From positions 3,070,565-3,134,564 of the forward strand of contig JAHBUV010000001.1 in NCBI GenBank assembly GCA_019637915.1: a stretch of DNA of 64,000 nucleotides, in the 5' to 3' direction. The notes beneath the pieces are model-generated. The model saw nothing but the letters and a program-made list of their open reading frames with translations. It did not search any database and was not told the DNA's origin. The translations under genes and the position numbers were made by a program. Shown one piece after another: positions 33,011 to 43,871 of this stretch; positions within the stretch are counted from its first letter, which is position 1, and each line of letters opens with the position of its first letter. Source of the DNA: Pseudobdellovibrionaceae bacterium. Its GTDB lineage: Bacteria > Bdellovibrionota > Bdellovibrionia > Bdellovibrionales > Bdellovibrionaceae.

Positions 33011-34060
33011 ATGGCGGATCTGAATTCCGAATTCGAAAAAAGAAAGCGCGATCACATCCGGATCGCGCTGGACCCCCGGGCCCAATCGTCGGTGACGAGC
33101 GGGTTCGATGCCGTGGAACTCGTCCACGAAGCCCTCCCTGATCTGGATTTTCAAGACATCGATTCCTCCTGGAGCTTTCAAGGCCACGCCTTGAGCGCGC
33201 CGTATTTCATCAGCTCCATGACCGCCGGCCATGATCAGGGCCGCGACCTGAATCGTCACCTCGCCCGCCTGGCGCAAGAGCGCCGTCTGCTCATGGGCGT
33301 GGGCTCGCAGCGCCGCGAGCTCAGCGATCCCGGCGCCGCCGAGGAGTGGCGGCAGATCCGCCGGGAGGCGCCGCGCGCCGTTCTGCTCGGCAACCTGGGG
33401 CTGGCGCAACTCATCCGCACCCCCGGCGATCAGGTGAAAGCCCTGGTCGACAACCTGCAGGCGGCGGCTTTGTTCATTCATCTGAATCCCTTGCAGGAGT
33501 GCCTGCAACCCGAGGGCACGCCGCAGTTTCGCGGCGGTTTGAAGGCCATCGAGCGATTGGTCAAGGAACTGCCGGTGCCGGTGATCGTGAAAGAGACCGG
33601 CAGCGGCTTTTCCGCCGCGACCTTGCGCCGCCTGGACGGCGCGGGCATCCACGCGGTGGACGTCAGCGGCCTGGGCGGCACGCACTGGGGCCGGGTGGAA
33701 ACCCAGCGCCTGGAAGAAAGTGATTTTCGTTCGCAAGCCGGGACGGCCTTCGCCGATTGGGGCGTGCGCACGGTGGAGTCTTTGCTTCACGCGAAAGAGG
33801 TCCGTGTCAGTTATCAACTCTGGGCGTCGGGGGGTGTGAGAAACGGCCTCGACGTGGCAAAATCAATCGCCTTGGGAGCGCAAGCGGTGGGCCTCGCCCA
33901 ACCCTGGCTGCGGGCGGCGATGGAAGCCGATCCGGAGCGGGCTCTGCACCGTTTGGCGGACCGATTGGATTATGAATTGAAGGTGTCTTTGTTCTGCACC
34001 GGTCAGCGGACCCCCGCTGAGCTGCGTGCGACCGGGAGGTGGACATGGCGAAATTCTTGA
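33011..34060 (+). CDS. fni: Type 2 isopentenyl-diphosphate isomerase
   Basis: A 349-residue FMN- and NADPH-dependent enzyme interconverting IPP and DMAPP. Conserved motifs include KRKRDHIRIAL at the start, SSMTAGHDQG, MGVGSQR, KETGSGF, VSGLGGTHWGRVE and ASGGVRNGLDVAKSIALGA (phosphate/FMN binding). It opens the mevalonate operon. Its last 16 bases overlap mvaA, showing coupling. The type 2 enzyme typically accompanies the mevalonate route, which agrees with the neighbours. Confidence 0.95.
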   Translation: MADLNSEFEKRKRDHIRIALDPRAQSSVTSGFDAVELVHEALPDLDFQDIDSSWSFQGHALSAPYFISSMTAGHDQGRDLNRHLARLAQERRLLMGVGSQRRELSDPGAAEEWRQIRREAPRAVLLGNLGLAQLIRTPGDQVKALVDNLQAAALFIHLNPLQECLQPEGTPQFRGGLKAIERLVKELPVPVIVKETGSGFSAATLRRLDGAGIHAVDVSGLGGTHWGRVETQRLEESDFRSQAGTAFADWGVRTVESLLHAKEVRVSYQLWASGGVRNGLDVAKSIALGAQAVGLAQPWLRAAMEADPERALHRLADRLDYELKVSLFCTGQRTPAELRATGRWTWRNS

Positions 34061-35328
34061 GCGAGGTTTTCCAAGGCTTCTCCAAGTTGGACCGTCACGA
34101 GCGCCTCGAGGCCCTGATGGAAACCGGGCTGCTCAGCGCCGAAGAGGCCGAGTACCTCGAGCGCGGCGGCCTGCGCGACATCAAGCTCGGCGAGAAGTTC
34201 ATCGAGAACGTCATCGGCTGGTTCCAATTGCCTTTGGGCGTCGCCACGAATTTCCGCATCGACGGCAAGGATCGCCTGATCCCCCTGGCGGTGGAAGAGA
34301 CCTCGATCGTCGCCGCCGCCAGCAAGACGGCGAAATGGATCCGCGAGCACGGCGAGATCCGCACCGAGGTCCTGGGCGCCGACATCATCGGCCAGATCCA
34401 GCTCGCCCGGGTGAAGGATCCCGTCGCCTTTGAGAAAACCCTGCTCGCGCGGAAACAAGACCTGATCGACCTCGCCAATCGCGAAGTGGCCGACGGCCTT
34501 GTCCGCCGCGGCGGCGGCGTCACCGACATCCAGGTGCGCCAGGTGTCCCGCGGCGACGGCGGCTTCATGGCCGTCGTGCACGTCCTGATGAACCCTTGCG
34601 ACGCCATGGGCGCCAACATCATCAACCAGGTCTGCGAATTCCTGAAAGAACCGATCGAGTCTTTCACCGGCGAAAAAGTCACCATGTGCATCCTGTCGAA
34701 CCTCGTCGACACGAAGATCACCCGCGCCACGGTGACCATGAAGATCGACGAGGAGACCGGCCGCAAGATCGCGGAGGCCTCGCTGTTCGCCGAAATGGAC
34801 CCCTACCGGGCCGCCACCAACAACAAGGGCGTCCTGAACGGCATCGATCCGATCCTGATCGCCACGGGCAACGACTGGCGCGCCGTCGAGGCCGGCGTGC
34901 ACGCCTATGCCGCCCGCAGCGGCCAGTACCGCTCCGTCACCCGCTGGACTTATCAACAAGGTCAGTTGACGGGCGTCCTGGAAGCCCCGTTGATCGTGGG
35001 CACCGTGGGCGGGGTCACGACCCTGCACCCGACGGCGAAGCTGTCCATGAAGCTCCTTGAGGTGAAGAGCGCCAACGACCTGTCCCGCGTGCTGGCCGCC
35101 GTGGGCCTGACGCAGAACCTGGGCGCCCTGCGCGCCCTCACCTCCGTGGGGATCATCGAAGGCCACATGAAACTGCACATCAAGAACCTGGCCCTGGGCG
35201 CCGGGGCCGAGGAAAAGGAACTCCCCGGCATGGTCAAAAAACTCGAGGAGGTGCTAGCCCTGCGCAAACGCATCTCTTTGAGCAACGCCGTGGAAGCTCT
35301 CAATGAACTGAGAGCCTCTCGCCTGTAA
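34045..35328 (+). CDS. mvaA: Class II hydroxymethylglutaryl-CoA reductase
   Basis: A 427-residue soluble enzyme reducing HMG-CoA to mevalonate. Diagnostic regions are ENVIGWFQLPLGVATNF, PLAVEETSIVAAASKTAKW (catalytic Glu), an IATGNDWRAVEAGVHAYAAR block holding the catalytic Asp/Lys neighbourhood, and VGTVGGVTTLHPTAK. The length and lack of membrane segments mark it as class II, as in Gram-positive cocci and some Bdellovibrio relatives. The ATG at 34045 has GGAGG with 5-base spacing and overlaps fni. Confidence 0.95.
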   Translation: MAKFLSEVFQGFSKLDRHERLEALMETGLLSAEEAEYLERGGLRDIKLGEKFIENVIGWFQLPLGVATNFRIDGKDRLIPLAVEETSIVAAASKTAKWIREHGEIRTEVLGADIIGQIQLARVKDPVAFEKTLLARKQDLIDLANREVADGLVRRGGGVTDIQVRQVSRGDGGFMAVVHVLMNPCDAMGANIINQVCEFLKEPIESFTGEKVTMCILSNLVDTKITRATVTMKIDEETGRKIAEASLFAEMDPYRAATNNKGVLNGIDPILIATGNDWRAVEAGVHAYAARSGQYRSVTRWTYQQGQLTGVLEAPLIVGTVGGVTTLHPTAKLSMKLLEVKSANDLSRVLAAVGLTQNLGALRALTSVGIIEGHMKLHIKNLALGAGAEEKELPGMVKKLEEVLALRKRISLSNAVEALNELRASRL

Positions 35329-35340
35329 GAGGACAACGAC

Positions 35341-36270
35341 ATGGCCTTGATCTTTTCCGTTCCCGGCAAAACCTTTTTGGCCGGGGAGTACCTGGCGCTG
35401 GAAGGCGGGCTGACGTTGCTCGCCATGTCCGAGCCGCGCTTTGAAATGCGCGTGGAGCTCGGCGCGGGCCGCCGCGCGGGCCTGAGCGAGGGCTCGCCGG
35501 CGATGAACTACATCCGCCGTCACGAGGAGTTTTTCCGCGGTCTCGACCTGACCTTCCGCGATCCCCACGAGGGCGCGGGGGGCCTGGGCGCTTCGACGGC
35601 GCAGTACCTGACGGTGTTCGCCATGCACTCGTGGAAATCCGCCGCCAATGACGAAGCCGACCGCGAGCTCGACACCAAGGCCTTGCTGGAAAATTACCGC
35701 CAGGACTCCTGGAACGGCGAGGGCAAAGCGCCCAGCGGTGCCGACCTGATCGGCCAGCTCAAGGGCGGTTTCACGTTTTTTGAACGTCAGACGGGTCTCA
35801 TCTCGCGCGGGGCCTGGCCCTTCGCGGAGATCGTGCCGGTCCTGATCCGCACCGGCGTGAAGGTGCCGACCCACGAGCATCTGCGTCGGCTGAATGAGCT
35901 CGACGTGACGGATCTCGCTCCCGTGATGACGGCGATCCGCCAGGCCTGGAATGACCGCGATGACCGCGGCTTCGCCGACCACCTGAACCGCTACGGCAAG
36001 GCCCTGGCGAAAAAAGGCCTGACCGCCGAATCGACCCTGGATCTGCTCCATGACCTCGCCTGGATGGAGAGTGTTGCCGCCGCCAAGGGCTGCGGTGCCT
36101 TGGGCGCGGACTTCGTGCTGGCCCTGGTGCGTCGCGATCTCAAACGCTCTTTCGATCTGTGGGCCGAGGAGAAAGAGCTCACCACGGTGCAACTGCTGGA
36201 TCATGTTTCTCCGGGGCTCGCTTTGAAGGTCGAAAAAGCCGTGCCCTTGATGAAGGAGAACAGCCTGTGA
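35341..36270 (+). CDS. GHMP kinase, probable phosphomevalonate kinase
   Basis: A 309-residue GHMP-fold kinase. It has the N-terminal PGKTFLAGEYLALEGG motif, the ATP loop GAGGLGASTAQYL and the C-terminal GCGALGADFVLALV. Two GHMP kinases and the decarboxylase lie together in this operon. The gene at 37225 has the clearer mevalonate kinase sequence, so this one is assigned to the phosphomevalonate step by elimination. It is shorter than many bacterial phosphomevalonate kinases. It ends with TGA overlapping the GTG start of mvaD. Confidence 0.8.
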   Translation: MALIFSVPGKTFLAGEYLALEGGLTLLAMSEPRFEMRVELGAGRRAGLSEGSPAMNYIRRHEEFFRGLDLTFRDPHEGAGGLGASTAQYLTVFAMHSWKSAANDEADRELDTKALLENYRQDSWNGEGKAPSGADLIGQLKGGFTFFERQTGLISRGAWPFAEIVPVLIRTGVKVPTHEHLRRLNELDVTDLAPVMTAIRQAWNDRDDRGFADHLNRYGKALAKKGLTAESTLDLLHDLAWMESVAAAKGCGALGADFVLALVRRDLKRSFDLWAEEKELTTVQLLDHVSPGLALKVEKAVPLMKENSL

Positions 36271-37223
36271 CGTCGGTGACCGCTCCGTCCAACATCGCGC
36301 TGATCAAATACATGGGCAAGGTCGAGGGCACGGGCAACAGGCCCACCAACGCCTCCTTGTCGTACACGATGAATCACCTGGTGACCGAGGTCTCGATCGC
36401 GGCTTTGCCGAAAGAGGCCACGGAAGACCGCTGGCGGCCGCTGGTGAAACCGGGTTTCGGGGCGCCGGCCTTGAGCGAAACGGGCCGCGCGAAATTCCTC
36501 AACCACTTCCGTTTTTTGAAAGAGACCTGGGGCGTTCCGGGTTTCCACGAGATCGCTTCGGCCAACAATTTCCCATCCGACTGCGGGCTCGCGAGCTCCG
36601 CCTCGAGTTTCGCGGCTTTGACCAAGGCCGCGGCCCGGGCTTTCGGGCGCGGGGAGAGCGCCGAGGAGCTGTCGCGCCTGAGCCGTCGCGGTTCGGGCTC
36701 GTCCTGCCGTTCCTTCTTTTCGCCCTGGGCCCTGTGGCGGGAAGAGGGCGCGGAGAGCGTCGATGACCTGGGCTTCGGCGATCTTCTGCACGCCGCCGTC
36801 GTGGTGAGCGCCGGCATGAAGCAGGTTTCCTCCAGCGAAGCGCACCGGCGGGTTCTTTCCAGCCCGAAATTCGCCGGCCGCCCGGAGCGCGCCGAGCAGC
36901 GTTTGCGCGAACTGATGTCCGCGCTGCGGGAAAAAAACTGGACGGAGGCTCACCGCGTGACCTGGGACGAGTTCGTCGACATGCACGAGCTTTTCGAAAC
37001 CAGCCAGCCGGCTTTCGGCTACCGCAACCGCGCCTCCAAAGACGTCGTCGATGCCTGCCGCCACATCTGGAGCTTCAAAAACGACGGGCCGCTCGTCACC
37101 ATGGACGCCGGTCCCAACGTGCACCTGCTGTTCCGCCCCGATCAGCGCGAGCTCGCCGACAAGATGGTCACGCACTTCCAGGAAAAACACGTCGTCATGA
37201 GCTCCTGGCGGGGACTCAAGTAA
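36267..37223 (+). CDS. mvaD: Diphosphomevalonate decarboxylase
   Basis: A 318-residue enzyme making IPP from mevalonate diphosphate with ATP. The GTG start overlaps the previous stop codon and has AAGGAG upstream. Family motifs are present: APSNIALIKYMGK, ASANNFPSDCGLASSASS, SRRGSGSSCRSF and VTMDAGPNVHLLF, which carries the catalytic Asp. The usual Trp of IKYWGK is Met here, and the usual small residue after NNFP is replaced by Ser-Asp. These are tolerated-looking substitutions rather than signs of decay. Confidence 0.93.
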   Translation: MTSVTAPSNIALIKYMGKVEGTGNRPTNASLSYTMNHLVTEVSIAALPKEATEDRWRPLVKPGFGAPALSETGRAKFLNHFRFLKETWGVPGFHEIASANNFPSDCGLASSASSFAALTKAAARAFGRGESAEELSRLSRRGSGSSCRSFFSPWALWREEGAESVDDLGFGDLLHAAVVVSAGMKQVSSSEAHRRVLSSPKFAGRPERAEQRLRELMSALREKNWTEAHRVTWDEFVDMHELFETSQPAFGYRNRASKDVVDACRHIWSFKNDGPLVTMDAGPNVHLLFRPDQRELADKMVTHFQEKHVVMSSWRGLK

Positions 37224-37224
37224 A

Positions 37225-38115
37225 ATGGGCACCCCTTTCGAGGCCGTGGCTTGCGGCAAGTGGATCCTGGCCGGGGAGCACGCGGTTCTGCGCGGCAGCC
37301 CGGCCTTGGTGTTCCCGCTGAAGACGCGCTCTTTGCGTCTGCGCTACGCGCCGGGCCCGCACGCCTTGAAGGTGCATCTGTCCGGCGACAACGGCCGTGA
37401 GCTGGAGCCGCTGTTCTGGGCCGTGCTGGAGCGCGCCTGCGACCTTTTGAAAACGCCGCGGGCGATGCTGAACGGAACCATCGAGATCGAGTCATCGATC
37501 CCGATCGGCGCGGGCCTGGGCGCTTCGGCGGCCTTCTGCGTGGCCATGACCCGCTGGTTCCGCGAGATCGGCTTGCTTCGCAGCGCGGACCTTTACGAGT
37601 TCGCGCGCACCCTGGAGAATCTCTTCCATGGCGAGAGCTCGGGCGTCGACATCGCCGTCGCTTTGTCCGGCGAAGGCCTGCACTTCGAGCGCGGCGGACC
37701 GAGATTTTCCGTGGCGCCGCGCTGGCAGCCGCGTTGGTACATTTCCTACACCGGCCGCCGGGGCGTGACCTCCGAGGCCGTGCAAAAAGTCAAAAAGCTC
37801 ATCGAAGCCGACCCGGAGAAGGGCCGCTTGCTCGACGAGCAGATGCGCTCCGCCGCCGAAGATTGCGAACGTGCCTTGTCCTTGGAGGAAGGGCAGGGGT
37901 GGCCCCTGCTGGTGTCCTCGGTGCGCCGGGCAGCGGAGTGTTTCCAGTCCTGGGGATTGTGCGAGGGCGAAGTCGGCGAGCATTTGCAAAGCCTCGCCCG
38001 GGCCGGCGCCGTGGCGGTGAAGCCCACCGGCAGCGGCGGCGGCGGTTACGCCTTGTCGCTCTGGAAGGACGAGCCGCCCGCCGAATGGCGCGAGCGGCTG
38101 ATTTCGTGCAATTGA
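37225..38115 (+). CDS. mvk: Mevalonate kinase
   Basis: A 296-residue GHMP kinase with CGKWILAGEHAVLRGSPALV, the ATP loop IPIGAGLGASAAFCVAM, HGESSGVDIAVAL (catalytic Asp) and KPTGSGGGGYALSLW near the C-terminus. It phosphorylates mevalonate at O5. It ends the operon one base before the convergent gene at 38117. With fni, mvaA, the second kinase and mvaD, all steps from HMG-CoA to IPP/DMAPP are encoded here. HMG-CoA synthase is not in the window. Confidence 0.92.
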   Translation: MGTPFEAVACGKWILAGEHAVLRGSPALVFPLKTRSLRLRYAPGPHALKVHLSGDNGRELEPLFWAVLERACDLLKTPRAMLNGTIEIESSIPIGAGLGASAAFCVAMTRWFREIGLLRSADLYEFARTLENLFHGESSGVDIAVALSGEGLHFERGGPRFSVAPRWQPRWYISYTGRRGVTSEAVQKVKKLIEADPEKGRLLDEQMRSAAEDCERALSLEEGQGWPLLVSSVRRAAECFQSWGLCEGEVGEHLQSLARAGAVAVKPTGSGGGGYALSLWKDEPPAEWRERLISCN

Positions 38116-38116
38116 A

Positions 38117-40126
38117 TTACGGGCAGGTCAAGCTGCGGTTGTTGGCCGCGGCGTAATCCATGAACGGGCGGCAGGCGTCGGTCATCTGGCCGCTGTCGGC
38201 GGCGCCCATCAGCAGACGCAGCAGGCCCGATGAATGATTGTCGTTCTTGTGGGGACGGAAAGTGTTTTTCGCGCTGTACAACGCCCCTGAATCCACGACC
38301 AGGGCGCAGGCCATGTTCTTCACGCCGGCTTGCGCCGCGCGGCCGCTCCGGTCCCGACGGACTTCGTTCATCACCAGGTTGGAGAAGTAATCCGCCCAGT
38401 CCTCTTCGGCGGATTCGAATTCCTGGGGCGTGCGCAGGTTCTGCTGAACCTCTTCCACGGACGAGACGTTCATCTTGAACGGATTGCGGTTCACCGTGCA
38501 GGCCCGGGTCGTCGCGAAGCCCGGGCTTTTCGTGCCGGCGTTGGCGAGGGCGTAAGACACCACGTGACCGATCTCATGGGCGAGCACGCCCAATCCCACT
38601 TCCGGCTGATTGATCGACGACCAGCTGATGGAAACGCGTTTCAGCATGGGGAGCGCGTAGTCGGAGAACGTGGTCGTTTCCCCGGCTTCGGCGCAGACCC
38701 GTTGCAGGGGTTGCTGGTTCTCCGTGCCGTCCTCCAGGGAGTAGATCTTTTTGAGGAAAACGATCTTGTCCAGGAGCCCTTGCTTCAGCATCTCCTGATC
38801 GGCGAGGTGGCTCAGGCCGACTTTCTCGATCTCCAGCTCGATGGTGCGCTGGATCTCGCTCGCGGATTCCGGCATGATGACGGAGAGGTTGTCGATGACC
38901 TGGTTCACCTCGTCCCGCTGGTCGGGCGCGATGCGGATCGCCACCCGGCGGGATTTTTCCTTGAGCTCGTCGATGAGGATCCGGAACTGCCGCTGCTTCA
39001 GGGGCGAAGCGGTGCTGGACAGCGCGAGGTTGACGGACGGTTTGCATGTCTTGTCGAACTTTTCCAGATCCCAGGCGGTGATGCGCGGTTCCGCCAGCGC
39101 GTCTTTTTGCAGCAGTCGTTCCCAGCGGGAGTCTTTTTTCAATTCCTGGATGCGGGCCGCCGGGTTGACGATGACCCGGGAGAGCTTCTTGAAAAGCGAT
39201 CCCTTGAAGATCTGCTCCATCAGCTCCACGGACTGGGTCATCTCCAGGTAATCGTTCACCTGCGACTGTGTGGAAAGGTCCCCTTTGAGCGCCCGTTGCG
39301 CGATCACGTGGTTGTTGAGCGAGGTCAGGCTGGCGCCGCTCAGGCGGAAAATGTTCTCGAAGGAGGACAGTTTGCCGAGATTTTCCTTCGCGTCGAGAAA
39401 AAGCGATCGGGCGGGATCCATCGCGGGGTACTTTTTAATCAATCGCACCACCAAGCGCTCCGCGGGCGTCAGGTAACTGAGAAGGGTCTTTTCGAGGCTG
39501 GTCTCGTAAAAAACGGAGTAAATTTCCAGGACGGCTTCCCGCTGGTCGGCGGGAACGCGATCCAGGTTGGCCAGAAGGGTCTCGCGGTCGAATTTCTTTT
39601 TCTCCTGGAGATTTTTCTGTGACTGGTTGAAATCCTCGACGATGGCCGACAGCGAGTTGACGCTCAGGAGAAGGGCGACCGGGATGCGCAGGGGGCCCAG
39701 GTTCCGCGGCACGTAACCCCGTTTGGCCAATTGCAGGAAGCGGGAGTTCTGGGTCACGGTGACTTGCTGGCGCTCCTCCATCAATTCCTTCATGGCGGGA
39801 CGGACGCGGCCGTTCCACCAGTTTTCGAAGGTGGCGCTCGGGTTTTTGCGGGCATCGAGCAGGTCGTAGGCGCCCCAATTGGCGATCGCGGGGCCGCAGA
39901 GGCTTTCAATGCAGGCCAGGATGTCCTTGGGTTCTTCCGGACGCGACATCAGGCTTTGCGGCAGTTCTTCCTTTTTGTCCTCCGCGACGATTTTGTTCGG
40001 CCGCAGGCGCTCGAAGACCGCCGGCAAACCGGACGGGCGCGCCTGGCTTTCGCGCAGGACGGAGGCCGAAGCGGCCAAAGGGGAAAGGATCAAAAAAGTG
40101 CCCAAAGCGGATTGCCAACGTGCCAT
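38117..40126 (-). CDS. Large exported protein with HExxH metallopeptidase motif
   Basis: A 669-residue protein. The ATG at 40124-40126 has AGGAGG upstream; the signal peptide is LGTFLILSPLAASASV. About 450 mostly helical residues follow, then LGVLAHEIGHVVSYAL (zinc motif HEIGH) near residue 525 and EEDWADYFSNLVMNE about 60 residues later, where Glu could be the third zinc ligand. Cysteines near the motif suggest disulfides. This fits a periplasmic or secreted gluzincin-like protease, but I do not recognise a named family. It converges with mvk. Confidence 0.78.
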   Translation of the reverse strand: MARWQSALGTFLILSPLAASASVLRESQARPSGLPAVFERLRPNKIVAEDKKEELPQSLMSRPEEPKDILACIESLCGPAIANWGAYDLLDARKNPSATFENWWNGRVRPAMKELMEERQQVTVTQNSRFLQLAKRGYVPRNLGPLRIPVALLLSVNSLSAIVEDFNQSQKNLQEKKKFDRETLLANLDRVPADQREAVLEIYSVFYETSLEKTLLSYLTPAERLVVRLIKKYPAMDPARSLFLDAKENLGKLSSFENIFRLSGASLTSLNNHVIAQRALKGDLSTQSQVNDYLEMTQSVELMEQIFKGSLFKKLSRVIVNPAARIQELKKDSRWERLLQKDALAEPRITAWDLEKFDKTCKPSVNLALSSTASPLKQRQFRILIDELKEKSRRVAIRIAPDQRDEVNQVIDNLSVIMPESASEIQRTIELEIEKVGLSHLADQEMLKQGLLDKIVFLKKIYSLEDGTENQQPLQRVCAEAGETTTFSDYALPMLKRVSISWSSINQPEVGLGVLAHEIGHVVSYALANAGTKSPGFATTRACTVNRNPFKMNVSSVEEVQQNLRTPQEFESAEEDWADYFSNLVMNEVRRDRSGRAAQAGVKNMACALVVDSGALYSAKNTFRPHKNDNHSSGLLRLLMGAADSGQMTDACRPFMDYAAANNRSLTCP

Positions 40127-40203
40127 TTGCCCTCCTCGGGGGTCTGCTCCCAATGAGCAAGCCGCGGACCAAGGCGCCGGGCAAGGAGTTGGCGTTCGGG
40201 TGT

Positions 40204-41361
40204 TCAGCTTTTAGACGGTGCCAAAAAGAGGTCGTCCCAGGGGATGTCTTTCAGGCCCACGGATTTCGATGATTTGGTGTAGATCAACGGGACTTGTGGG
40301 AGGAAAGGCGCCCCGTCGCGGAGCCAGGCCGTGACGTCGGGGAACCAGCGCGAGGGCGCGGGGCCGAGCCCCGCTTGCAAGGCTTTGGTTTCTTCACCGA
40401 CGAGGTCGACGCTGGCATCGGGGAGATTTTCACGGATCCACTCGCCGGCGCGGCGATGGTGGGCGGCGGCGGCGTCACCGAGTTCGAGCATCGAGCCCAG
40501 GATCAGGTGGCAGGGGCGGTCGCGGCGGATTTCTTTCAGGCTCTGCAGCCCCTCCTGCAGGCTTTCCGGGCTGGAGTTGAAAGCGTCCTCGATGACCAGG
40601 CGTCCGTCGGGCAAAGTGCGGAGGGAAAAACGTCCCGGCAGGGGCGCCCATTTCTGCAGGCCCTCGCGGATCTCCTCGCGGCTGGCGCCGAGGGCGACCG
40701 CGAGGCCGATGGCGGCCAGGGCGTTGGCGGGCAGGCGGCGGTGCAGGCCGTGCAGGAAGATCTCATCCACGCCGAGGGGGCTTTGGTAAACCAGGGCCCA
40801 GCCCTGTTCGCGGGCCTCGGCTTTCAGCAGGCGGATGGCGTCGTCGAGGCTTTCGCCGAAGGTGAAGGCGTGGCGGTTTTGCGACTGCAGCTCGCGGCGC
40901 GGGCGCGGATCATCGCCGGGGATCACGAAAAATCTCGGGGAAGGGTGCGACAGCACGCTCAGTTTTTCACGCACGAGGGGTTCCACACCGCCGAACTCGG
41001 CGACGTGAGCATGGCCGATGTTGAGCAGCGCTGCCACGTCGGGGCGCAGGAAGCGAAAGGCGCGGTGCAGGTCGCCGCGGTGGCGGGCGCCGACCTCGGC
41101 CAGGAACAGGCGCGCGTCCGCGGGCAGGGACAACAGCTGCCGGGCGAGCGCCGTCTTGGTGTTCAGGTTCGCCGGCGAGAAGTGAAAACCGCGGCGGCCT
41201 TCCAGGATCCGCACCAGCATCTCTTTGACCGTGGACTTGCCGTTGGAGCCGCTGACCGTGACGACGGTGAAGCCGCGCCTCTCGAGGCGGTTTTGCTCCG
41301 CCGCGAGGAAGATCTTTTCGCGCTCCTGAGTGGTCAGGCTTTCAGTTCGTTTCGGCTCCAC
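40204..41361 (-). CDS. Mur ligase family protein lacking the N-terminal UDP-binding domain
   Basis: A 385-residue ATP-dependent amide ligase related to MurF. The ATP loop VTVSGSNGKSTVKEML begins only ~25 residues from the start, so the UDP-sugar-binding domain of true MurF is absent. Other MurF-like landmarks are SPANLNTKTALARQL, LAEVGARHRGDLH and IEDAFNSSPESLQ in the C-terminal domain. The GTG at 41359-41361 is the likely start and overlaps the GCS2 gene by 28 bases. The substrate is unlikely to be UDP-MurNAc-peptide. It sits in a coupled unit with a GCS2-type ligase and a PepSY membrane protein. Confidence 0.82.
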   Translation of the reverse strand: MEPKRTESLTTQEREKIFLAAEQNRLERRGFTVVTVSGSNGKSTVKEMLVRILEGRRGFHFSPANLNTKTALARQLLSLPADARLFLAEVGARHRGDLHRAFRFLRPDVAALLNIGHAHVAEFGGVEPLVREKLSVLSHPSPRFFVIPGDDPRPRRELQSQNRHAFTFGESLDDAIRLLKAEAREQGWALVYQSPLGVDEIFLHGLHRRLPANALAAIGLAVALGASREEIREGLQKWAPLPGRFSLRTLPDGRLVIEDAFNSSPESLQEGLQSLKEIRRDRPCHLILGSMLELGDAAAAHHRRAGEWIRENLPDASVDLVGEETKALQAGLGPAPSRWFPDVTAWLRDGAPFLPQVPLIYTKSSKSVGLKDIPWDDLFLAPSKS

Positions 41362-42398
41362 AGGCAGGCCCCCAGGTCTTGGTCCTTTTGAAAGCGGCTG
41401 ATCATCTCGTCGGCGGGGGTCTTCTGGTCGCGGGCGCGGCGTCGGTAGACCTCGAGGGCGGCGGGATCGAAGCCGTGGTCTTTCAGGACCTCGTCGGCGC
41501 CGGTGAAGAACTCCGTCAGGCGCTCCGCCACGGTCTCGGCTTTCAGGCCGAAGCGGGCGACGTTGCCGAGGTCGTAGATGCGCGACTGCGGACGGGCGCG
41601 GCCGGTGAGCTTCGGATTGAGCAGCAGGTTCAGGAAGCACAGGATCTGGGCCTCGAATTCGCCGAGGCTGTCGGTCATGTCGAAGACCTTGAATTCCAGC
41701 CGCCCGTCTTCATGGGGATGGAACTCGATGGTCGGGGCGACCGTGCTGCGTTTGAACATGCGGTAACTGTGGCCGAAGCCGCCGCGGTAGTTCCACAGCT
41801 GGCCTTTCAGGAAAGGGCTCGCCACGGAAAGCGCCGACAGGGCGGGGCCGTAGTGGTCGATCTTGGCCTCGAGGTCCTTCGGATCGATGCGGGAGCGCAT
41901 CTCCGGCGGCACGCTGACGTTGATGTCGGGGCCGAAGGTGGTCATGACCTCCATGGCCCACAGCCAGAAATCGTGGCGGCGTTTGTTCTGCGGGCCGTGG
42001 AATTCGAACTCCGTCGGGTGATGCGACAGCGCCACCAGGGTCGCGTCGACGGGCTTCAGGGCCTCGTTCAGGCGGCCGTGCAGGAGCTTCAGGGTGTCGA
42101 GGGTTTCGCGCACGCTGTCGCAAACGGGCGTGCGGATCTCGAGGCCCTTCGGCTGCATGTCGGCGGCGCTCGAGTCCTGGTGGGGGACGTGATAGCCTTC
42201 GACGACGTAAGGCATGGGTTTGGTGTGCGGTGGCTCGAGCTCGAGACCGTCGAGGGTGGCGATGCCGTCCAGGGGGATCGACTCCAGCACCTCGTTGAGG
42301 GGGCGGAATTTCAGATCGTGGTGCCACAGGGGTTTGGAGTCCGAGCGGCGCATGACGAGATACTCGGCCTCGAGGCCGAAACGAAAGCCGTTGCTCAT
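41334..42398 (-). CDS. GCS2-type glutamate-cysteine ligase-like carboxylate-amine ligase
   Basis: A 354-residue protein of the GCS2/YbdK-like family. It begins NGFRFGLEAEYLVM, the first substrate/metal-binding block with paired acidic residues. It continues with PKGLEIRTPV, TFGPDINVSV and APTIEFHPHEDGRLEFKVFD. Such enzymes join an amino group to a glutamyl or other carboxylate using ATP. Its ATG overlaps the PepSY stop as ATGA, and its end overlaps the Mur ligase start. Which acid and amine it uses cannot be told from sequence. Confidence 0.85.
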   Translation of the reverse strand: MSNGFRFGLEAEYLVMRRSDSKPLWHHDLKFRPLNEVLESIPLDGIATLDGLELEPPHTKPMPYVVEGYHVPHQDSSAADMQPKGLEIRTPVCDSVRETLDTLKLLHGRLNEALKPVDATLVALSHHPTEFEFHGPQNKRRHDFWLWAMEVMTTFGPDINVSVPPEMRSRIDPKDLEAKIDHYGPALSALSVASPFLKGQLWNYRGGFGHSYRMFKRSTVAPTIEFHPHEDGRLEFKVFDMTDSLGEFEAQILCFLNLLLNPKLTGRARPQSRIYDLGNVARFGLKAETVAERLTEFFTGADEVLKDHGFDPAALEVYRRRARDQKTPADEMISRFQKDQDLGACLWSRNELKA

Positions 42399-42880
42399 TT
42401 GAAATACTTCCTCTGAATGAATTGAAAGAACAGATAAAGACCGGACAGATAAAGAACGAGCAGGGCCACCGCGCCCGGCAGGAAAAGGCCGTAGCGCACC
42501 CAGGGGCCGAAGAAGGCGCCCTCGTGCAGGGACACCAGCAGGCCCATGCGCCGCGGTTCCACCTGCAGGATCTCGCCGGTGGCGGGATGCACTTGCGCTT
42601 CCAGCTGGTGCTTCTTGAAGCGCACGCGGAAGAGGCCGCTCGAGGGGCGCACGTCGATCTGGCTGACGTCGGCCCAGCTCTTCACGCCGAGTTCGGGATG
42701 GCTTTGCAGGCTTTCGAGCAGGTGGTCAAAGCGGATGTCGAGCCGGGACTCGGTGATTTTTTGCGACTCCGGCTGCACCCAGGTGTTGAACCCGCGGGTC
42801 ATGAGCAAAATGCCGGTCACGACCATCAGTCCGACCGGAAGAAGAGCCACCACCGTGAGCCATCGATGCCATTTTCTCAT
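42395..42880 (-). CDS. PepSY-associated membrane protein, 161 aa
   Basis: It begins MRKWHRWLTVVALLPVGLMVVTGIL, the characteristic start of PepSY-TM proteins. A periplasmic PepSY-like domain follows (VSQIDVRPSSGLFRVRFKKH, then VHPATGEILQV), and a second membrane span lies near the C-terminus. Related proteins occur with iron reductases and siderophore systems or as inhibitors of peptidases. It leads the three-gene overlapping unit with the two amide ligases. Confidence 0.85.
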   Translation of the reverse strand: MRKWHRWLTVVALLPVGLMVVTGILLMTRGFNTWVQPESQKITESRLDIRFDHLLESLQSHPELGVKSWADVSQIDVRPSSGLFRVRFKKHQLEAQVHPATGEILQVEPRRMGLLVSLHEGAFFGPWVRYGLFLPGAVALLVLYLSGLYLFFQFIQRKYFK

Positions 42881-43124: not shown

Positions 43125-43163
43125 GTTCCCTTTTTGTCGTGCATCGCACGACAAAAAGGGAAC
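43125..43163. repeat. Dispersed hairpin repeat, copy A (perfect)
   Basis: The arms GTTCCCTTTTTGTCGTGC and GCACGACAAAAAGGGAAC are exact complements around ATC. It lies 16 bases beyond the sod stop codon, so it may also act as a terminator on the minus strand. Related copies occur at 55537-55585 and 57476-57510, with a degenerate half at 54463-54480. The remainder of the 298-base gap 42881-43178 shows no gene. Confidence 0.85.
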
Positions 43164-43178: not shown

Positions 43179-43871
43179 TCAAGGGAGCTTGTTTTTCAAA
43201 GCTTCCTGGTCGTATTGATCGACCATTTTCCAGTTCACCACGGTCCAGAATTTTTTCAGGTACTCGGGGCGTTTGTTTTGGTAGCGCAGGTAGTAGGCGT
43301 GTTCCCAGACGTCGGCGCCCAGGATCGGCCAGCCGCGGTCGGCGACGACGTCCATCAGCGGATTGTCCTGGTTCGGCGTGCTGGTGATCTTCAGTCCTTC
43401 CGGCGTGCGGATCAGCCAGGCCCAGCCTGAGCCGAACTGCGCGGCGCCGGCCTTCTCGAACTCCTCCTGGAATTTGGCCACGGAGCCCCACTTGGTGACG
43501 ATGTCTTTCTCCAGGCGGGCCGGCAGGGCATTGTCTTTTTCATTCCCGCTCAGCACGGTCCAGAAGAAGGAGTGGTTCCAGTGGCCGCCCACGTTGTTGC
43601 GGACCGCGGCCGGTTGCTTCGAGGCGTTCTGCAGCAGGTCGAGCATCCGCGCCTTTTGCCCGCTCAAGGCCTTGTTGGCGTTGTCCACGTAGGCCTGATG
43701 GTGCTTGTCGTGGTGAATGGTCATGGTCTCGGCATCAATAGCCTTGTCGAGGCTGTTCGCCGCGTAGGGCAGGGGCGGCAGCTTGAAGGGCACGGACAGG
43801 GTGTTGAGATCCTTCAGGCTGGCTTGAGCCTGGAGCGCGAAGAGCACGGACAGCAAAGCAATTCTTTTCAT
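43179..43871 (-). CDS. Exported superoxide dismutase, Mn-type sequence
   Basis: A 230-residue Fe/Mn superoxide dismutase with an added signal peptide (MKRIALLSVLFALQAQAS), so it acts in the periplasm or outside. The metal ligands are visible in TIHHDKHHQAY, GGHWNHSFFW and GADVWEHAYY. The residues GGHWNH, FGSGWAWL and NQDNPLMD fit the manganese rather than iron subgroup; this is inference from pattern. GAGGAGG precedes the ATG. Exported SODs usually are Cu/Zn enzymes, so a secreted Mn-type one is less usual. Confidence 0.92.
   Translation of the reverse strand: MKRIALLSVLFALQAQASLKDLNTLSVPFKLPPLPYAANSLDKAIDAETMTIHHDKHHQAYVDNANKALSGQKARMLDLLQNASKQPAAVRNNVGGHWNHSFFWTVLSGNEKDNALPARLEKDIVTKWGSVAKFQEEFEKAGAAQFGSGWAWLIRTPEGLKITSTPNQDNPLMDVVADRGWPILGADVWEHAYYLRYQNKRPEYLKKFWTVVNWKMVDQYDQEALKNKLP

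Follow-up and report, generated by a model that had tools for sequence, protein, structure and literature searches.

What does a bacterium build with two amide-forming ligases whose genes are overlapped with each other and with that of a small membrane protein? The question is raised by three genes in a 64,000-nucleotide stretch of DNA (the window; contig JAHBUV010000001.1, positions 3,070,565 to 3,134,564) from a Pseudobdellovibrionaceae bacterium of the phylum Bdellovibrionota (assembly GCA_019637915.1). Very probably, these genes form a two-ligase operon that makes a small molecule, and the biosynthetic and operon part of this reading is well supported. More tentatively, we propose that the operon is modular, that the window carries its Mur-ligase version, and that the product which it makes and handles is a small molecule with amide links, probably a chelator of iron or another metal, the iron part being drawn from relatives of the window operon; to call the unit metallophore-type is a reasoned guess of the same tentative standing.

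Two diverged ligases coupled to a membrane protein

The operon comprises the following genes, given in their order of reading:

42395..42880, minus strand: PepSY_TM membrane protein of 161 residues; two predicted membrane helices (2-33 and 133-160) flank one PepSY-type domain, and His5 and His119 are invariant
41334..42398, minus strand: GCS2-type carboxylate-amine ligase of 354 residues, from a remote subfamily; GLEAE (8-12), DIN (158-160), EFKVFD (235-240) and the invariant arginines are intact
40204..41361, minus strand: MurF-like ligase of 385 residues with a GTG start and without the N-terminal uridine diphosphate (UDP)-binding domain; the P-loop, Glu89, Lys133 and a DAFN.SPES motif are kept

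On re-reading of the frames and strands, the PepSY and GCS2 genes overlap by 4 bp and the GCS2 and Mur-like genes by 28 bp, just as an initial annotation of this DNA had stated. All three proteins exceed Pfam cut-offs: PepSY_TM (PF03929) is matched at 41.2 bits, with a gathering score of 28.8; GCS2 (PF04107) is matched remotely, at 33.3 bits; and the Mur-like protein matches Mur_ligase_M (PF08245) at 84.5 bits and Mur_ligase_C (PF02875) at 38.7 bits. Overlaps and domain matches agree with the proposal, also made in that annotation, that translation of two amide-forming, ATP-dependent ligases is coupled to that of a PepSY membrane protein.

The likeness of the GCS2 protein to characterized enzymes lies in its fold, that of GCS and glutamine synthetase. 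Its AlphaFold model (predicted local distance difference test score, pLDDT, 77.2; predicted template modelling score, pTM, 0.81) has as top Foldseek matches plant glutamate-cysteine ligase (GCL; 2gwc, E 5e-10), YbdK (1tt4, 8.5e-10) and 1r8g, and also finds GshAB, PafA/Dop and glutamine synthetases, while a search of the PDB with the sequence gives no match up to E = 1. The motifs and arginines of the superfamily (PMC2588565) are present and nearly all invariant: GhExE appears as GLEAE at residues 8-12, with G8, E10 and E12 invariant among 12 sequences; the [HD]x[NH] motif of strand 4 is D158-I-N160, with D and N invariant; the Ex[RK]x2D motif of strand 6 is E235-F-K237-V-F-D240, with D changed to E in Bacteriovoracaceae; and R213, R217 and R233 are invariant. 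A profile alignment with same-family canonical YbdK-type enzymes pairs GLEAE with GVELE, LEIRTPVC with IEVNTKPC and SHHP with GTHP. Because the fold matches and all superfamily motifs are present, the protein is, as judged from model and motifs, an intact ligase of a diverged subfamily. It has fold and superfamily motifs in common with YbdK/GCS2 enzymes, including plant GCL and the N-terminal half of GshAB, but in addition to its low Pfam score it reaches only 39.2 bits against the YbdK-subfamily model TIGR02050, far from the cut-off of 176.4. The label 'glutamate-cysteine-ligase relative' given to it initially therefore holds for fold and superfamily motifs and fails for close kinship, in view of this score and of the PDB sequence search. 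A separate canonical YbdK-type GCS2 coexists with the operon GCS2 in genomes G030, G005, G029 and G059.

The Mur-like protein shares with MurF the central ATPase and C-terminal ligase domains, the P-loop, the conserved lysine and the DA(F/Y)N.(S/N)P.S motif, but its match to the MurF model TIGR01143 begins only at position 68 of 418 and scores 203.6 bits against a cut-off of 288.6. A missed upstream start that would supply the UDP-binding domain was considered and rejected: extension of the reading frame to the upstream GTG at 41640 (478 residues) gains no N-terminal domain, and the match still begins at 68. The prediction that this ligase, lacking the UDP-sugar-binding domain, cannot be a normal MurF is thus upheld by the late start and low score of the match; a true full-length MurF is encoded elsewhere in the window genome (C1:1291177-1292472; 392 bits, positions 1-415). 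In all seven operon Mur ligases found in the phylum, the P-loop, E89, K133 and N262 are invariant and the score to the MurF model stays below 255 bits. In a tree with 14 MurFs of the phylum, the seven make up a clade of their own, apart from these (100/100), the window branch being long. The N-terminal domain is lost in four of them (the window and three relatives) and kept as a diverged, degenerate copy in the other three, where the model match starts from position 2 or 6. As these three relatives, whose ligase sits at the same place in the operon, still have the diverged domain, the UDP domain was lost late and only in part of the clade, and truncation would have come after the enzyme had given up MurF function.

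Conservation of the pair and its second-ligase slot

Profile searches with the GCS2 and PepSY subfamilies covered 369 genomes of the Bdellovibrio phylum. Each subfamily occurs in 31 genomes and 28 are common to both, a co-occurrence with Fisher p ~2e-35 by genome and 6e-16 by genus, kinship being corrected no further than genus; chance neighbourhood of PepSY and GCS2 was rejected on these values. Of the 28 shared genomes, 25 have the genes side by side on one strand, two have them ~2 kb apart, separated by genes for small secreted proteins, and one has them 2 kb apart on opposite strands; three genomes have the PepSY subfamily without GCS2. Carriers belong to four families and are patchily distributed, and many close relatives, including one genome of the window's genus, are without both. 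Conservation of all three genes together is accordingly borne out for PepSY and GCS2 (28 of 31 each) and only in part for the Mur ligase (7 of 31 loci). PepSY plus GCS2, rather than all three genes, make up the conserved unit; the Mur enzyme is one option among several for the second ligase.

The search beyond the phylum comprised one pattern scan of genome contigs with the window protein, which recovered at least five metagenome-assembled genomes, labelled Bacteriovorax, Bacteriovoracaceae or Proteobacteria, and a search of plasmids, which recovered one remote GCS2. The literature that could be searched yielded no description of the combination of PepSY, GCS2 and a second ligase, in keeping with the earlier remark that no described pathway has this trio. 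The operon is real, conserved and, in that literature, apparently undescribed.

What occupies the position after GCS2 is exchangeable. A Mur ligase directly follows GCS2 in exactly seven of the 369 genomes, and none of these ligases is found outside the operon; a cyanophycin-synthetase/GshAB-like ATP-grasp ligase follows it in exactly four and occurs nowhere else at a comparable score. These two partners are never found in the same genome. Two further species have a second, tandem GCS2 (loci L079 and L081). The ATP-grasp ligase of the four sister operons matches cyanophycin synthetase and the ATP-grasp half of GshAB (231 bits, PRK14016), but unlike cyanophycin synthetase it is a stand-alone protein of ~325 residues with no Mur domain, and it lies only beside PepSY-GCS2. 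In the GCS2 tree, the Mur-linked GCS2 of the window is sister to the ATP-grasp-linked GCS2s (97/92), and the other Mur-linked GCS2s make up a separate clade. From this placement in the tree it follows that the second ligase has been swapped in place within one operon slot, and replacement in place argues that the slot has a single function, namely a second ATP-dependent ligation.

Variant settings of the GCS2 gene were also seen. In genome G011 (L030 3468-7149), a GCS2 gene without a PepSY neighbour lies upstream of a type III glutamine synthetase, an enzyme of the same fold. The GCS2 gene at L031 5423-6627 occupies two overlapping frames, possibly through a frameshift or an assembly error. 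The remote plasmid relative, on Serratia symbiotica plasmid NZ_AP019532.1 (L125 7001-8098; 25% identity), sits in a conjugative-pilus cluster, a context different from that of the operon and an odd place for a peptide ligase.

Secreted proteins adjoin some operons. One family of ~300 residues, with a shared stretch like KLKAD.GSLS and no Pfam match, borders the operon at six loci, which come from two families (L063 2486-3382, L065 475-1371, L066 2449-3372, L067 9726-10649, L072 9660-10559 and L075 8441-9439) and is possibly an outer-membrane partner. In L076-L078, L082 and L083, PepSY and GCS2 are flanked or parted by a cassette of genes for secreted proteins or lipoproteins (~120, 460 and 120 residues), which fall into no clear Pfam family.

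A candidate metal-chelate pathway

Both its family and the transport genes near its relatives make the PepSY protein more likely to be, by analogy, a haem-type metal-chelate reductase than a generic factor; the initial suggestion that it may 'handle, protect or sense' the product was right about a membrane protein and too general about its role. The protein has the Pfam PepSY_TM domain in common with the metal-chelate reductases FoxB, FpvG and CrpH and is likened to them by an invariant histidine near each membrane helix (His5 and His119, in 12 sequences). Among PDB sequences the nearest to it is that of the siderophore reductase FoxB (E 0.033), which also ranks fourth in a fold comparison of the model (7abw, E 0.04); both matches are weak. 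Known PepSY_TM members are ferrisiderophore reductases or putative copper reductases, and those compared have at least four membrane helices and paired His ligands of two haems (PMC13038864). Unlike FoxB, FpvG and CrpH, the 161-residue window protein has two membrane helices per chain along with its two invariant histidines, and FoxB-type haem pairing would need a dimer. VIA-align returns middling matches of the model (Z < 6) to common small domains and to copper amine oxidase N-domains, which are uninformative.

Transport genes adjoin the operon in the window's relatives. FetB/FetA-like UPF0014 transporter genes follow in 15 loci, about half, and are fused in three. Among 29 genomes of the window's family, a UPF0014 gene of any kind occurs in only three, in each case within the operon; the count in non-carriers of the operon is 0 of 17. 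At L080, GCS2, FetB and FetA are followed by overlapping genes that best match FecB, FecD and FecE of ferric dicitrate import, and at L029 and L070 a gene for a solute-binding protein comes first in the operon. At L097, in a genome with PepSY and no GCS2, TonB and then a TonB-dependent receptor follow. A di-haem CCP/MauG (CCP_MauG) peroxidase gene is directly upstream in eight Bacteriovoracaceae loci.

Regulatory sites were found in both tandem-GCS2 species, where a Fur box (16/19) precedes PepSY by 59-60 bp; it lies in a 26-bp block that is identical in the two, while the surroundings have diverged. Within the 439,512 bases searched, matches of at least 15/19 occur only in these two species. 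The box is also ~100 bp from a divergent gene, and from its sequence setting it likely belongs to the operon. No Zur, MntR or IscR consensus was found upstream of the operons.

Together, these components suggest a pathway of four steps. First, to judge from its fold and motifs, the GCS2-type ligase would activate a presumed carboxylate substrate with ATP and join an amine to it. Second, from its position and its replacement among relatives, the other ligase would extend or cap the product; in the window this enzyme would be MurF-derived and no longer in need of the UDP-sugar handle, and elsewhere it would be an ATP-grasp ligase or a second GCS2. Third, by comparison with relatives, a FetAB-like ABC transporter would export the product. 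Fourth, the small PepSY_TM protein, as a half-size relative of haem-dependent ferrisiderophore reductases, would reduce the returning metal chelate at the membrane and so free the metal. In some lineages Fur would control the unit and a ferric-dicitrate-type importer would be co-transcribed with it; in the window strain, export and import would need other transporters. We infer the order of these steps, as well as iron as the metal; copper is possible instead, because one PepSY_TM member has been tied to copper (PMC13038864).

Several findings weigh against a metal chelator as the product. The metal link of the window operon would be one of relationship only, because the window strain is without a UPF0014 gene, a Fur box and an operon importer: its genome gives no match to a UPF0014 gene (and so lacks FetB), no importer is seen next to the operon, and no Fur box above chance lies upstream of it or of the other first-family operons. 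The convincing box is confined to the two tandem-GCS2 species, with none in Bacteriovoracaceae operons. In the relatives, the proteins likened to the FetAB exporter and the FecBCDE importer score under equivalog cut-offs, the FetB-like ones far below (100 vs 410 bits), and the L097 receptor scores best to BtuB, under the cut-off, and looks less siderophore-like. In Bacteriovoracaceae, the operon is without a second ligase at most loci. Finally, the model of the half-size PepSY protein is weak (pLDDT 70.7), and the FoxB match is only suggestive.

Operon neighbours and alternative explanations

The surroundings of the operon in the window contain these features:

43125..43163, no strand: perfect inverted repeat, gttccctttttgtcgtgc-atc-gcacgacaaaaagggaac, in the gap that parts the operon from the superoxide dismutase gene
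43179-43871, minus strand: Fe/Mn superoxide dismutase with a signal-like N-terminal sequence, judged by eye; probably exported
38117-40153, minus strand: secreted protein of 678 residues with a zinc-peptidase-like HEIGH motif, just downstream on the operon strand; no Pfam or NCBIfam match
34039-38115, plus strand: mevalonate-pathway cluster with HMG-CoA reductase (342 bits, TIGR00532), diphosphomevalonate decarboxylase and mevalonate kinase; it includes the frame 35341-36270, which has no Pfam match

The superoxide dismutase gene is separated from the operon by a gap of ~300 bp that holds the repeat, which from its sequence is probably a terminator splitting the two. This gene upstream and that of the 678-residue secreted protein downstream were considered as parts of the operon and set aside, each being a neighbour at no other locus.

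The principal alternative to a metal chelator, which we regard as unlikely, is a glutathione-like low-molecular-weight thiol. The GCS2 enzyme would make gamma-glutamyl-cysteine or a similar dipeptide, the second ligase would add a C-terminal residue like the ATP-grasp half of GshAB, and FetAB, PepSY and the di-haem peroxidase would belong to periplasmic redox or iron protection. The fold matches of GCS2 to plant GCL and GshAB speak for a thiol, as do the resemblance of the ATP-grasp partner to cyanophycin synthetase and the GshB half of GshAB and the presence of a DsbD-like gene beside one tandem-GCS2 locus. Further, 40 of 42 genomes searched have no classical GshA, and GshB is over the cut-off in 0 of 44; the window genome itself has no match to GshA (PF04262) and only a 40-bit match to GshB, below the cut-off. 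However, the patchy spread over 31 of 369 genomes is unlike that of a housekeeping thiol, GshB-like genes lie away from the operon in Bacteriovoracaceae, and two carriers do have GshA. The GCS2 sequence is also far from that of true glutamate-cysteine ligases (39 bits against a cut-off of 176), and the Fur box, the FecBCDE-type importer and the TonB neighbour would be unexpected for a cytosolic thiol.

Less probable still is a system of iron efflux and peroxide defence: iron, or a complex of iron with a peptide, would leave through FetAB, peroxide would be removed by the di-haem peroxidase, and the peptide made by the ligases would buffer iron. FetB is annotated as an iron-efflux protein, and the CCP_MauG peroxidase of the eight Bacteriovoracaceae loci and the superoxide dismutase gene upstream in the window would fit such a role. 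The latter, however, is not a conserved neighbour and lies beyond the ~300 bp and the perfect inverted repeat described above, and the Fur box, like the co-transcribed importer of Fe(3+)-dicitrate type, speaks for acquisition instead of efflux.

The matches of the GCS2 model to PafA and Dop, together with the close one-to-one genomic pairing of GCS2 with PepSY, could also indicate that the ligases put amino acids or a tag on PepSY or some other protein, in the manner of the related enzymes PafA/Dop and RimK. We consider this very improbable: the C-terminal tail of PepSY is short and unconserved, small peptides are the substrates of MurF-type and cyanophycin-synthetase-type ligases, and the PepSY subfamily persists without GCS2 in three genomes. 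We find a cell-wall side pathway, with PepSY and GCS2 as bystanders and the truncated Mur ligase acting to recycle or edit peptides of peptidoglycan (that of prey, for instance), barely credible even though MurF enzymes are the nearest relatives of the ligase and many members of the phylum prey on bacteria, for the UDP-binding domain is lost or degenerate, an ATP-grasp ligase replaces the Mur enzyme in the same slot, the operon Mur ligase occurs only with GCS2 and PepSY, and the window genome has its own MurF.

If the operon does make a metal chelator, it might represent, and here we are more doubtful, a new class of metallophore pathway without nonribosomal peptide synthetase (NRPS) or NRPS-independent siderophore (NIS) enzymes, in which a diverged GCS2 starts the product, its completion falls to a Mur-type ligase, an ATP-grasp ligase or a second GCS2, export is by FetAB, and the metal is stripped off by a PepSY haem reductase of half the usual size. 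The unrelated Mur-type and ATP-grasp ligases at the same step in sister operons amount to a natural experiment, through which their shared substrate could be found by comparison. If true, such a pathway would have been missed by genome mining aimed at NRPS or NIS enzymes, would place the UPF0014 exporters, of which little is known, in the context of a substrate, would enlarge metallophore chemistry by a biosynthetic logic that is small and simple, and would account for the way in which some Bdellovibrionota deal with scarcity of iron or another metal.

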